Virus record (IMG/VR): IMGVR_UViG_3300037808_000478
Coordinates: 1 to 20,006 of that record
DNA from: a virus
DNA: 20,006 nt
Reading direction: 5' to 3' (one strand)
Every line of letters begins with the position of its first letter. Within the stretch, counting starts at the first letter, position 1. Shown in pieces: positions 9,401 to 20,006 of this stretch. The notes under the pieces were generated by a model. That model saw only the letters and a list, made by a program, of their open reading frames with translations. It made no database searches and was not told the DNA's origin. The position numbers and the translations under genes are program-made.

Positions 9401-12077
9401 AAATTGGGAAGCTGACTATAGTTATTATCTCCCAAGAGTAGATACAGTTTATTTAAGTAGAGAAAGAAAGTTCGGTTCTAATAAAGGAACACCTTCTTTG
9501 AAAACAATACCCCCTTCAAGACTTGATGGGACAATGAATCTCTATACTATTTACATTCCTGCTTTTACTTTTAAAGCAAGTGATGTAACTACACAATATA
9601 TAGAAAACAAAAGATACACGATGAGGGACATTGGTAAGTTGGAAAAACGAATTGCTAATGTAGAGTATTACACTTCTTTATCATTGTTAGAAAAAGATGC
9701 TGAGTCATTGGTAATTAAAGATACTGCTGGTTTGGATAGATTTAAAAATGGATTTTTGGTAGATGGTTTTAATGGTCATAGTGTTGGAAATGTTCTGAGT
9801 CCAGATTATAAATGTGCTATTGATTTTGATGAAAAGATTTTACGTCCAAGCTTCAACTCCGAGATTACTGATGTTTATTATGATTCAACCGAATCTGTTG
9901 GAGTACAAAAAACTGGTGATTGTATTACATTGCCATATACTACAACTCCACTAGTTAACCAGACTATTGCAAGTAAAGCAATTAATGTAAATCCATTTGC
10001 AGTATTAGCTTGGGTTGGTAATATTGATTTAACACCTCCAAGTGATAACTGGATTGACACCACAACAAATCCAGAGGTAGTTGTAAATCTTCAAGGTGAA
10101 AATGATGCTTGGGAAAGTTTAGTTGGTTTATCATTTGGAACACAATTTAATGATTGGCAAACTATAGGAACAGGAAGGGAAAGAGTTTTAGCTACTAATA
10201 CAAGTACAGATAGAAGGGCAGCATTTCCTTTTATTAGAAGAAGAACTTCACAGACAGTTGAAGCTCAGGTAACACAGACAAGAACTGGTATCAGGAATGA
10301 GATTACTGGTGTTGATACTGTAAGGAATAGTATTGGTGATAGGATTGTTGATGTTTCTGTTGTTCCTTTCATTCGCTCTAGGGATTTGATTGTTAATGTA
10401 AAGGGAATGAAACCAAATACAAGAGTGTATGCATTCTTTGATAGTGAAGATGTTTCAGCATTCTGTACGCCTTCAGGTGGTTCATTGGGTGATGCAATAT
10501 ATACGGATGATGGTGGTTCTATTTCTGATTTAAAATACAATATTCCAAATTCAGATACACTTAGATTTAGAACTGGCGAAAGACAATTTCTTTTAGTTGA
10601 TAATATTCAGGGTGATTTAATCTCAGCTTCAACATATGCTGAAGTAATTTATGCAGCACAGGGATTACTTCAGACAAAAGAAAATGTTGTAGTATCATCA
10701 AGAGTTCCAAGAGTTCAGTCATTTGGACAAGGTAGTGCTACTGAATTTAGAACTACAACTAATACATTCAACCGCGTTAATGTTGGTGGTTGGTTTGATC
10801 CATTGGCTGAAACATTTCTGGTTGATGAAGCATTATATCCAGATGGAATTTTCCTTTCAGATATTGATTTGTTTTTCAAATCAAAAGACGATGATGGACT
10901 ACCAGTAACAGTTAATATCAGAGACACCTTGAATGGTTATCCTGCTAGAGTAGTATTACCATTTTCAGATGTTTCTAAGTTTCCTGCTGATGTTAATGTA
11001 AGTGAAGATGCAAGTGTTGCAACTAAGTTTACTTTCCCTTCATTGGTTTATTTACAGCCCGGCGAGTATGCAATTGTTGTATTGAGTAATAGTTTGAAGT
11101 ATGAAGCATATATTTCTGAGATGGGTGAAAATATTATTGGGACAAATAGAAAGATTTCTGAACAACCTTATGCTGGTGTATTCTTTAAATCACAGAACGC
11201 ATCAACATGGAGTCCAGACCAAAATCAAGATTTAACATTTGTATTAAATTATGCTGAGTTTACAATAGATAATAGTTCAGCAGCTGCTATATTTAAAGAT
11301 GGTGTTGTTGGTAGTGAGTTCCCATCTAGTACAAAATATAAAGCAGATATTGTTCAGCTAGTTCCTCAAGAAGTTAGGATAAACAATACAGGTGTATTTT
11401 GGAGTATAAAAATGACTAGTGAGGATGGAGCTAGTCCTCCAGTAAAAACTCTTGATACAGATTTTGAACCTGTTATTCAGAATACTAATTTTCAACTTGC
11501 TTCTCAAAAAGTAATATCAGGAAAAGAAACAACAACATCAGAAGGAACATATATTTCTAAAGCACAACTTGTATCTACTAGTAAGTTTATTAGTCCAGTA
11601 ATTGATACTGCTAGAAATAGTGTTATTACTATTGAGAATGTTATTAACAATCTCACAACCAATGAAGAAAATACTGCAGGGGGTGACTCGACAGCAAGAT
11701 ATCTTACTCGCCGTGTTAATCTTAAAGACGGATTTGATGCAACAGACATCCAAGTTTTTATGACTGCTAATAGACAAGCTGGATCAAAAATATCTGTTTA
11801 TTATAAAGTATTATCACAATTTGATAATGATACATTTGACAACAGGCCTTGGACTTTAATGAATGAATCGACAAATACTAATGCTGTTTCTGCTTCAGAC
11901 GAATTGGGCGAATATTTGGAACTTGAATTTTCACCAGTTGGGGCAAATGCTAATTATGTATCTAATGGTGTTACTTATGATAGTTTTAAAACATATGCAA
12001 TTAAAATTGTTATGACTTCACCAAATACAACTAAAGTTCCTTTGATAAAAGATTTGAGGGCCATTGCGTTAGCATAA
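6426..12077 (+). CDS. Giant virion structural protein, DUF4815-like N-terminus
   Basis: The product is 1,883 residues. Its N-terminus ([20 protein letters not shown], then [20 protein letters not shown]) has the pattern of the DUF4815 phage structural family: a P-x-QARELTxxQ motif followed by a beta-rich [11 protein letters not shown] segment. Residues about 148-323 hold four [15 protein letters not shown] repeats. [16 protein letters not shown] module lies near residue 825. Near residue 1460 is [13 protein letters not shown], then [10 protein letters not shown] and [11 protein letters not shown], which recur in large phage tail proteins. There is no signal peptide or membrane segment. The gene occupies the slot after gene 8 where T4 has genes 9-12. 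I infer a peripheral baseplate or fibre-attachment role, in place of recognisable gp9/gp10/gp11. Enzyme activity is not evident. Confidence 0.8.
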
Positions 12078-15170: not shown

Positions 15171-15722
15171 ATGATTACTGAGAAGGATTTACTTAATGAT
15201 AAGATAACAACCATACATAATTTTTTAACCCCAAAAGAAGCAATTGATTTTTGGTATTTAACTAATGAATGTACATGGAATTATGGCAGAGTATCCAATA
15301 CATTCTCTAGTCAGAAACAAAAGAGAATGACTTATAATTTTGATCCTGACTATTTTATACAAACAGATTTATGGAAAAGATGTGATAAGTTATTTACAGA
15401 TGATATATCTTTGAGTCATGCCTATATAAATTATTCAGATCATGCAACTGTAAATCTTCCACATTCAGACGGTAAAGATAATGGCCCTACTATATTATTA
15501 TGTTTGAATCAAGAATGGAAAAGAGATTGGGGTGGATACACAGTAATGTTTAAAAATATGAATAGTAATGATATTGTTCATGCTGTTTCACCAGAACCGG
15601 GCAAAGCAACTATTTTTAGGGGTTCTATGTGGCATTCAGGTACTCCTGTAGCACATTATGCTGATTATCCCAGATTTATGTTAACTATACATTGTTTTAT
15701 AGAAAAGGAAATTAATAAATGA
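15171..15722 (+). CDS. 2-oxoglutarate/Fe(II)-dependent oxygenase
   Basis: This 183-residue protein has the complete metal and co-substrate signature of the double-stranded beta-helix oxygenases. The iron ligands are H98-x-D100 (in NLPHSDGK) and H155 (in MWHSGTPV), with R168 (YPRFMLTIH) placed 13 residues after the distal His to bind 2-oxoglutarate. W/G-rich strands lie between (DWGGYTVMF). Length is normal for a stand-alone phage enzyme. AAAGGAG (15159-15165) gives a strong start, and the stop overlaps the next start as ATGA. The enzyme would couple oxidation of 2-oxoglutarate to hydroxylation of an unknown substrate. Its place among fibre genes suggests a virion protein or a cell-surface sugar or lipid as target, but this is inference. 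Confidence 0.88.
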   Translation: MITEKDLLNDKITTIHNFLTPKEAIDFWYLTNECTWNYGRVSNTFSSQKQKRMTYNFDPDYFIQTDLWKRCDKLFTDDISLSHAYINYSDHATVNLPHSDGKDNGPTILLCLNQEWKRDWGGYTVMFKNMNSNDIVHAVSPEPGKATIFRGSMWHSGTPVAHYADYPRFMLTIHCFIEKEINK

Positions 15723-17452: not shown

Positions 17453-17683
17453 AATAAACCAATTAATTAATAAGGATAAATAAATGGCTTATATAGGAAG
17501 ACAATTTCAAGATGCGGTGCCAGCTGATGGCACGGTTACGAAAGCTAAAGTATCATCCGGTGACTTTGTAACAGACTTTACTGATACAGTTATCACAGCC
17601 TCAGATGAGATTATATTTGCTGACGCTACCGATACACAGGCTGAGAAAAAAGATACTGTTCAAGGTATTTTGGATTTGGTTCC
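17453..17683 (+). repeat. Direct repeat copy A: leader plus adhesin N-terminus
   Basis: From AATAAACCAATTAATTAA through the RBS and the first ~66 codons, this copy closely matches 18756-18988. Differences are mostly single bases plus small in-frame or leader indels. Homology stops at the codons for GILDLVP. Confidence 0.9.
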
Positions 17684-18176: not shown

Positions 18177-18566
18177 ATGACATATAAAGTAATAGTAGAT
18201 TTTGATGAAAATAATAAAATAACAAAATATCAGGATGTAGACACAGAGGAAGAGGCTATTGCTCATGTAGCTAAAGTGGTAGATAACTACCCTAATGCTT
18301 TCTATGTATTAGATACTTTCCAAGGCAATATGTTTGATTATCTGGTGGTAGATAGTGTTAATAAAACATTAACACCTAACGATACTCAGTTTGCTATTGA
18401 CGAGACTGCTATTGAGGATGCAAAACCCTACGATATTAAAAGAAAAGAGGCTTATAGTTCTATTGTGGATCAGCTAGATATGCAGTACCACGACATCATC
18501 AACGCCACGACTACTTGGGTAGACCACATTCGGGCTGTAAAAGCCGCTTATCCTAAGGGGGAATAA
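18177..18566 (+). CDS. Fibre-associated accessory protein (QLDM module copy 3)
   Basis: This 129-residue protein has the strongest RBS of the window (GAGGAGG at 18165-18171, five bases before ATG). The C-terminus (YSSIVDQLDMQYHDI, then TTTWVDHIRAVKAAYPKGE) shares the module described for 13673-14002 and 15719-16123. The N-terminal ~85 residues differ (MTYKVIVDFDENNKITKYQD; VDNYPNAFYVLDTFQGN). It directly follows an adhesin gene. The end of this gene is much richer in G+C (31 of 60 bases at 18481-18540 by hand count) than the equivalent gene at 15.8 kb, which fits separate acquisition. Confidence 0.78.
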   Translation: MTYKVIVDFDENNKITKYQDVDTEEEAIAHVAKVVDNYPNAFYVLDTFQGNMFDYLVVDSVNKTLTPNDTQFAIDETAIEDAKPYDIKRKEAYSSIVDQLDMQYHDIINATTTWVDHIRAVKAAYPKGE

Positions 18567-18572
18567 CCCAAT

Positions 18573-18760
18573 ATGAGTACGACAAAGGTTTCACCAGCAC
18601 TAGAGGCGGAAGATATTAAGTTTATTAAAGCTCAGGAGACAGGAGCCGACACTACTGCCATAGTCACTGAAAAACCCGATTGAGAGACATTACAAACGGG
18701 GCTGATACGGCTACAACCTTAGACGAATTACTAGCCTTGAAAGCTAAACAAGGGGAATAA
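18573..18760 (+). pseudogene. Small ORF split by a -1 shift (frameshifted gene or two overlapping ORFs)
   Basis: An ATG at 18573 opens a 36-codon frame (MSTTKVSPALEAEDIKFIKA, then QETGADTTAIVTEKPD) that stops at TGA 18681-18683. In the -1 frame, starting at a TTG (18680) that overlaps this stop, a 26-codon frame runs to TAA at 18758-18760 (LRDITNGADTATTLDELLAL, KAKQGE). Together they read as one ~62-residue acidic/helical protein. Three readings are possible: a broken gene, a sequencing or assembly error, or coupled ORFs at TTGA. No canonical slippery heptamer is present at the junction (GAAAAACCCGATTGA). AAGGGG before the ATG could serve as RBS. The only other content of this 219-base gap is the leader of the next adhesin. 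Confidence 0.55.
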
Positions 18761-18988
18761 ACCAATTAATTAAAAGGATAAATAAATGGCTTATATAGGA
18801 AGAGGATTACAAGATGCTGATGCTCCGGCTGATGGGACTGTAACAAACGCTAAAATATCATCAGGTAACTTTGTCACAGACTTCACCGATACAGTTATCA
18901 CGGCTTCAGATGAAATTTTATTTGCTGACGCTACCGATACACAGGCAGAGAAAAAAGATAATATTCAAGGTATTCTGGATTTGGTTCC
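18756..18988 (+). repeat. Direct repeat copy B: leader plus adhesin N-terminus
   Basis: This is the partner of 17453-17683. The match begins at the TAA of the split ORF and continues through the leader, RBS and first ~67 codons. Both copies are in the same orientation about 1.3 kb apart. Confidence 0.9.
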
Positions 18989-19499
18989 AGATAACACCCC
19001 CTCTATATCCGATAATGGCTCAAGTGGTGGGATGGTTATTTCTTCAGCACACGAAATTACTATGCCTCTACAACCTTGTTTCCACGCTTACATTAATTCG
19101 ACTCAGAACAATGTAACTGGTAATGGGACTTCGTATGACGTTACAGGGGCAATTTGGACTGAGACTTTTGACCAAAACGCAGATTTCAGCAACGGAACTT
19201 TTACGGCTCCCGTAAGTGGCAGATATCTTTTGCAAGGTGTTTTGCATCTGAATGGGATTGCTTCTTGTACGGATTTCACCGTTAAGATGGTCACAAGCAA
19301 TAAGACATTTCAGGCTTACAGAATTGATCTTGCCGCGGTAGGAGCATCGTCTGGTATTACTATCGTGTCGTTTGGTTTTGTGGCAGATATGGATTCCGCA
19401 GACACAGCAAAGATAAATATACAGGGATATAACGTAGGGTCAGATACGGTAGATGTCACCGCTACAAATTCGCTCTTTATGGGTTGCCTTTTAGCCTAA
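18786..19499 (+). CDS. Modular adhesin/tail fibre, tip type 2 (C1q-like)
   Basis: This 237-residue protein has an N-terminus (1-68) nearly identical to that of the 17484 adhesin. The C-terminal ~140 residues, from about residue 95, have the pattern of a C1q/TNF-like jelly roll: a start PCFHAYINSTQNNVTG, then FDQNADFSNGTFTAPVSGRY followed by LLQGVL, and an aromatic/Gly-ending last strand (NSLFMGCLLA). FTAP-x-x-GxY is the family's best landmark. C1q-like tips are trimeric and occur in phage receptor-binding proteins, so this is likely an alternative receptor tip on the same stem. The copy-B leader precedes it. The stop is followed by 16 bases and then the first MILTQRQLD gene. Confidence 0.85.
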   Translation: MAYIGRGLQDADAPADGTVTNAKISSGNFVTDFTDTVITASDEILFADATDTQAEKKDNIQGILDLVPDNTPSISDNGSSGGMVISSAHEITMPLQPCFHAYINSTQNNVTGNGTSYDVTGAIWTETFDQNADFSNGTFTAPVSGRYLLQGVLHLNGIASCTDFTVKMVTSNKTFQAYRIDLAAVGASSGITIVSFGFVADMDSADTAKINIQGYNVGSDTVDVTATNSLFMGCLLA

Positions 19500-19515
19500 T
19501 CAATATAGGGATATT

Positions 19516-19707
19516 ATGATATTAACACAAAGACAATTAGATGTATTAAACCACATAGTAGAAGACGGACAGACTTGGGCTGATAACGCTAAAGAGGCGA
19601 GTGATACGGCTCATGTTGTACTTCAAATGACGGGAGGCTCTAACAATGCAGATATTCAAGATACTTCTCCCGGCTCAACCTATTTCTCAGGAGCTTTGTT
19701 AGCATAA
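19516..19707 (+). CDS. Chimeric small ORF: truncated MILTQRQLD gene fused to a fibre-end-like tail
   Basis: This 63-residue ORF begins MILTQRQLDVLNHIVEDGQT and matches the gene at 19707 over about 33 codons, with mostly silent changes and one three-codon difference. After that its sequence is unrelated to the 19707 gene. Its end (STYFSGALLA) resembles the end of the preceding adhesin (SLFMGCLLA), and its stop overlaps the next start (TAATG) just where an adhesin stop would be expected. It looks like a recombination scar that happens to stay open. Whether it is expressed as a functional peptide is unknown. AGGG lies upstream of the ATG. Confidence 0.6.
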   Translation: MILTQRQLDVLNHIVEDGQTWADNAKEASDTAHVVLQMTGGSNNADIQDTSPGSTYFSGALLA

Positions 19708-20006
19708 TGATATTAACTCAAAGACAATTAGATGTATTAAACCACATAGTAGAAGACGGGCAGGCTTGGGCAGATAATGCTAAAGAGGAAGCTCACGTTC
19801 TGGCGAAGGTTGCTAAATATGAAGCTGAATATGATGCTTCTGTTTTATCTGGCAATTACAGGAATAGAGTTGAGCGAGACTTGGATGCTTTGCCACCCCC
19901 TCTAACAGCTTCGGAGCAATGGAAGGTTGACATTAGAAGCTCACCTATGAACCGCAACCGTGAAGATTTTATTACAGAGGTAATGGCAGGAGTAGCAGAT
20001 TCTCCT
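19707..20006 (+). CDS. Small accessory gene downstream of adhesins, unknown (partial, runs off the end)
   Basis: The ATG at 19707 overlaps the preceding TAA. The frame is open for 100 codons to the window edge. It begins MILTQRQLDVLNHIVEDGQA, continues through an Ala/Glu-rich helix (AKEEAHVLAKVAKYEAEYDA) and reaches LPPPLTASEQWKVDI, then NREDFITEV. The predicted helical, acidic N-terminus, together with its place directly after adhesin ends, suggests a fibre accessory or chaperone role. I do not recognise a family. This appears to be the intact copy; the ORF at 19516 is its truncated duplicate. Confidence 0.7.
   Translation, partial: MILTQRQLDVLNHIVEDGQAWADNAKEEAHVLAKVAKYEAEYDASVLSGNYRNRVERDLDALPPPLTASEQWKVDIRSSPMNRNREDFITEVMAGVADSP

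Follow-up and report, generated by a model that had tools for sequence, protein, structure and literature searches.

A chimeric reading frame among the tail-fibre genes of a marine T4-like phage, very probably a recombination scar

Results and Discussion

Organization of the fibre locus

A marine T4-like phage is the source of the analyzed fragment of DNA (20,006 nucleotides; hereafter, the window). A gp25-like baseplate wedge protein is encoded at 302-718, and the terminase of a near-identical relative of the window, G001, is about 55% identical to cyanophage and Methylophilales phage terminases. From 12279 onward, fibre genes and small genes are arranged in a row, and the fibre locus is a series of tandem cassettes, each of which pairs a fibre gene with a small partner gene behind it. 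At the end of the window, the gene order is fibre A, an open reading frame (ORF) of 63 amino acids (19516-19707) and a small gene with a product starting with MILTQRQLD, which continues past the window end (Table 1). The initial annotation had described tandem MILTQRQLD starts here, and both the 63-residue ORF and the gene at 19707 are indeed present. A scan of the region for promoters and terminators gave nothing above chance. The fibre locus also contains an ORF (15171-15722) that matches phrog_274 (annotated as 'DNA endonuclease V'); judged by eye, this ORF has the HxD...H pattern of a 2OG-Fe(II) oxygenase, and the phrog_274 annotation is doubtful.

Table 1. Features at the end of the window
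Feature	Position	Strand	Basis
Second relic, frame broken: MSTTKV fibre-gene start fused with the end (...TATTLDELLALKAKQGE) of another small gene	18573..18762	+	Sequence comparison
Intact fibre A, 237 amino acids: shared N-terminal module MAYIGR... and C1q-like receptor-binding tip ending SLFMGCLLA	18786..19499	+	ORF, C1q-like profile, phrog_15750, AlphaFold
Spacer, 16 bp, with AGGGA Shine-Dalgarno-like stretch before copy 1	19500..19515	+	Sequence, inspection only
Copy 1: truncated start of the MILTQRQLD small gene, codons 1-27	19516..19597	+	93% DNA identity to 19707-19788
Stranded C-terminal ~36 codons of a C1q-like tip (putative lost fibre B), continuing the frame of copy 1 to stop TAA	19598..19707	+	C1q-end profile, ORF scan
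Copy 2: MILTQRQLD small gene, continuing beyond the window end, likely tail-fibre assembly partner	19707..20006	+	ORF; L002/L006 relatives
Allelic patch of 121 bp in copy 2, diverged from G001 and G004 (18 differences)	19760..19880	+	Comparison of genomes

The AlphaFold model of fibre A was of moderate quality for residues ~94-237 (pLDDT mostly 60-80) and unreliable for the remainder. Comparison of the model with the PDB using Foldseek returned the gC1q domains of C1QL1 and C1QL2 (E = 1.8e-6, TMt 0.70-0.71), and the C-terminal part of fibre A is predicted, with moderate confidence, to have the gC1q jelly-roll fold. The Pfam C1q family (PF00386) matched the fibre of L006 above the Pfam cut-off (26.3 vs. 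23.7 bits) and L012 below the threshold, and fibre A itself did not reach the Pfam C1q cut-off. A distant blastn search of the fibre region in phages gave short matches to generic fibre sequence only. Two fibre genes of the window share a stretch of 88% identical DNA (17453-17683 and 18756-18988), which begins 31 bp upstream of the genes and reaches about codon 67 (MAYIGR...ILDLVP); beyond this shared start module, the tips of these fibres, which begin at 17484 and 18786, are unrelated.

The product of the MILTQRQLD gene has 118 amino acids in G001. In the relatives L002, L003 and L006, a full-length MKLTQRQLD gene follows a complete C1q-like fibre gene after 8-9 bp, an arrangement that the initial annotation had named as one that would support its model, and the conserved MxLTQRQLD N-terminus is thereby encoded directly downstream of a fibre gene. 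Because the phages L002 and L003 are almost identical, they and L006 amount to two independent cases of the normal order rather than three. The small genes of L002 and L006 have phrog_9114/phrog_1787 C-termini. The C-terminus of the MILTQRQLD gene (19707-20006; L001:6192-6548), ...YDAKILLRGNKPI, differs from these, and the same ending recurs in another partner gene of a second close relative, G004, which indicates that the partner gene is itself mosaic. Alignment of the MILTQRQLD gene against the genome contigs gave no relative, and a tblastn search with the protein encoded at 19707 gave no match in the phage collection. From its position and by analogy with known marine fibre/chaperone pairs (PMC10579305), the partner gene likely encodes a putative assembly chaperone.

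The 63-residue ORF combines two gene families

The first half of the 63-residue ORF repeats the start of the partner gene. Copies 1 and 2 were matched over 82-85 bp with 92.9% identity (blastn, E about 5e-30). The shared start had thus been recognized correctly in the initial annotation, but its length had been overestimated (about 33 codons): the match starts at the ATG and stops after ...GCTAAAGAGG, that is, after 27 codons, and past this point only a short AHV resemblance is left between the copies. Within the 27 codons, the copies in the window have five differences, four of which are silent (T4, G18, A22 and N24), the other being T20A. With the match ending at codon 27, the ORF is without the C-terminal part of the partner gene (phrog_9114/1787-like in the relatives), and nothing significant was found for it in Pfam or PHROGs.

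The second half had been noted to resemble the end of the upstream adhesin, and a profile search bore out the resemblance to a fibre end. When a C1q-like profile was built from five fibres, with the 63-residue ORF excluded, the C-terminal 37 residues of the ORF (EASDTAHVVLQMTGGSNNADIQDTSPGSTYFSGALLA) matched positions 117-152 of the 152 profile positions (18.6 bits, E = 1.6e-4), and this match to the end of the C1q-like domain reached the last residue of the ORF; the best of 2000 shuffled sequences scored 10.3 bits (E = 0.058). Among 1405 six-frame ORFs from contigs of seven sources, only real C1q fibres and the 63-residue ORF (in the window and in G001) matched the C1q profile at E <= 1, and the 63-residue ORF was the sole non-fibre ORF that matched the C1q-end profile. 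In the model of fibre A, the last strands are residues 207-217 and 222-236, and this is the part present in the 63-residue ORF. The stranded tail is thus predicted to correspond to the last two strands of the C1q jelly roll, and the join appears to lie near the MDASDTA turn just before them. The complete jelly-roll domain is absent from the ORF, which holds the last two strands only and is a remnant rather than a member of the family.

The two halves of the ORF therefore come from different gene families, which are adjacent in relatives, and the ORF is a chimera in which the start of a small partner gene runs into the extreme C-terminal end of a different fibre tip. A complete fibre B with this exact C-terminus (...SDTAHVVLQMTGGSNNADIQDTSPGSTYFSGALLA) was not found in IMG/VR or in the phage collection. 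Protein searches for the donor gave no match, and searches with degenerate DNA patterns matched only the G001 copy of the scar and, falsely, L027, a large unrelated phage structural protein that was rejected as the donor fibre.

The same chimera in a near-identical genome

The same chimera is present in G001 (IMGVR_UViG_3300024261_000119), which is 99.6% identical to the window over 10.8 kb. Homologues of the whole ORF as an independent conserved gene, which would have spoken against the model of the initial annotation, were looked for, and the only copy found elsewhere was that at the same locus of G001. Since its only occurrence outside the window is in this near-identical genome, the ORF is not an independent gene family.

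The initial annotation had correctly read the ORF as a chimera but had also derived the two starts from diverged relatives, on the grounds that the substitutions between them are largely silent. This second part was not supported, because the two copies in G001 differ at only 2 of 82 bases and the extra differences in the window belong to the 121-bp patch (Table 1). Between the window and G001 there are 44 differences in 10.8 kb, 18 of them within this patch, which runs past the end of the repeat, and at nearly all of the patch sites G004 has the G001-like allele. From this comparison of genomes, the patch looks like a later local allelic replacement; the divergence of the copies in the window would thus come mainly from such a replacement, and it does not date the scar. 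Dating of the duplication by silent substitutions was rejected for the reason that the differences sit in a patch extending beyond the repeat, and conversion of copy 2 by copy 1 was ruled out for the sites beyond 19788.

The 63-residue ORF overlaps the start at 19707, and a stop/start overlap is present in both genomes (TAATG in the window and ATGA in G001). The four bases before copy 2 (19702-19705) are GCAT in the window and AACC in G001/L001, which is unlikely to have arisen by four point mutations, and the AACC version of G001 resembles TAAACCAAT of other gene junctions.

Analogous events in the locus

G004 (IMGVR_UViG_3300037808_000847) is 98.6-99.8% identical to G001 in the shared stretches and flanks, but it lacks 1161 bp that make up one fibre gene and its partner in G001. 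The junction lies at GGGGCTGATA, a 10-bp microhomology shared by both, and leaves a fused start/end ORF in G004 (MTTTKVTGALQEDGTKGAD-TATTLDELLALKAES). As to direction, the difference would represent either a loss in one genome or a gain in the other. A second difference between G004 and G001, of about 1.2 kb, changed the tip of the MAYIGRELQ fibre. Together with the second relic in the window (Table 1), the fusion that distinguishes G004 from G001 shows that the 63-residue ORF is one of several start/end stubs in the locus. The second half of this relic has a 94% identical copy upstream of the MAYIGRELQ fibre in G001. A junction sequence composed of a partner-gene end and a fibre start (GGGGGAATAAACCAATATGASTACGACAAAGGT) recurs at 18554-18589 of the window, at 10809-10844 of G001 (reverse-complemented contig) and at 293-330 and 1747-1783 of L021, and it is possible that this recurring junction serves as a homology patch for cassette exchange.

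Origin of the chimera

In our view, the 63-residue ORF of this marine T4-like phage is a scar left by recombination within the tail-fibre locus (probability about 0.87). The scar would have arisen by an illegitimate join of codon 27 of a MILTQRQLD partner gene to the final stretch, about 36 codons long, of another C1q-like fibre gene. The starting state would have been two tandem cassettes, fibre A with its partner and fibre B with its partner; a deletion mediated by very short homology would then have removed everything between codon 27 of the first partner and the final ~36 codons that remain of fibre B, and the product would be fibre A, the start/end chimera and the complete MILTQRQLD gene. 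We infer both the route and its direction, and such an internal deletion between tandem cassettes is the most likely route. Because no more than the final two strands of the fold are encoded, the chimeric protein is probably without function.

The initial annotation had favored an incoming cassette, consisting of the fibre A tip and the start of its partner, that recombined before the end of an old fibre B, which corresponds to an unequal crossover between two genomes. This reading, which contests the deletion route only and has the scar in common with it, is a tenable but less probable alternative. Its product would be identical to that of the deletion, and relatives do exchange tips and partner genes, as seen in the 88% identical starts and different tips of the fibres at 17484 and 18786 and in the different tip of the MAYIGRELQ fibre of G004. 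However, two genomes and a non-homologous join are needed for it, whereas a single molecule suffices for deletion between tandem cassettes, and the support from silent divergence has failed. An incoming cassette is not required; the internal deletion is at least as simple, and G001 differs from G004 by a directly comparable event. A broader proposal, that the locus turns over at a population time scale (genomes less than 1% apart) by repeated short-homology deletions and insertions of cassettes, with the stubs as a log of past tips and some of them, such as the 63-residue ORF, kept in frame for translational coupling, seems to us rather unlikely.

It is improbable that the ORF has been kept as a leader cistron that couples translation of the MILTQRQLD gene, possibly also being expressed as a small peptide. 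Its frame is open in two genomes, and the overlap with the next start has been kept despite the change between GCAT and AACC in the last four bases, but two genomes that show 2 differences and the four-base change over 191 bp are too small a sample for a test of selection, and in L002, L003 and L006 the partner gene follows the fibre gene at the short distance given above without such a leader. A repeat-induced misjoin in the assembly is very improbable: although the contigs are metagenomic and the G004 contig begins inside the 82-bp repeat, the same structure recurs in the separate contig of G001, which carries substitutions of its own and differs by 0.4% over 10.8 kb, and a repeat of 82 bp is shorter than a typical short read, which counts against a misjoin. 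Hardly credible, finally, is a real independent small gene that shares its N-terminus with its neighbor by chance; the ORF does have a start and a stop of its own and a Shine-Dalgarno-like stretch in front, but it has no relative beyond the same locus of a near-identical genome and no Pfam or PHROG family, and its C-terminal half belongs to another protein family.

Comparison with known systems

The recombination scar described here offers a modest, clear illustration of phages reshuffling the components with which they select hosts. It is a clean footprint of tail-fibre recombination in an uncultured marine T4-like phage, in that both halves can be assigned, the normal order is seen in relatives and an analogous event separates near-isogenic genomes. 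Start/end stubs of this kind could serve to count past host-range switches, and annotators should be cautious, as short ORFs in fibre loci may be scars rather than genes.

In the distal tail-fibre locus of T-even phages, recombination between conserved motifs reportedly swaps adhesin specificity, in work by Tetart, Desplats and Krisch in 1998. The present locus is likewise T4-like and hypervariable, with tips exchanged behind a conserved start to give hybrid genes. The tips here are, in contrast, C1q-like, several fibre and partner cassettes lie in tandem, and the join between unrelated sequences has left a short start/end stub instead of a functional hybrid adhesin. Distant Alteromonas phages exchange the tail fibre together with its chaperone (PMC10579305), and there, as here, a fibre and its downstream partner travel as a unit between marine phages; the comparison in those phages is of whole functional modules, whereas the present stub would be the leftover of a failed or incomplete exchange or of a loss.

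T4-like tail-fibre genes are known to be mosaic (PMC2993671), and illegitimate or short-homology recombination is described as a source of phage mosaicism (PMC2327257 and PMC2993671). A breakpoint with minimal homology, as proposed here, would agree with that description, as does the expectation that most products are useless and few survive; the present case is an example with a scar from a natural population rather than an experimental measurement. That illegitimate and short-homology recombination makes the fibre locus of T4-like phages mosaic is already well known (PMC2993671; PMC2327257), and the scar is a clear new instance of this rather than a new kind.
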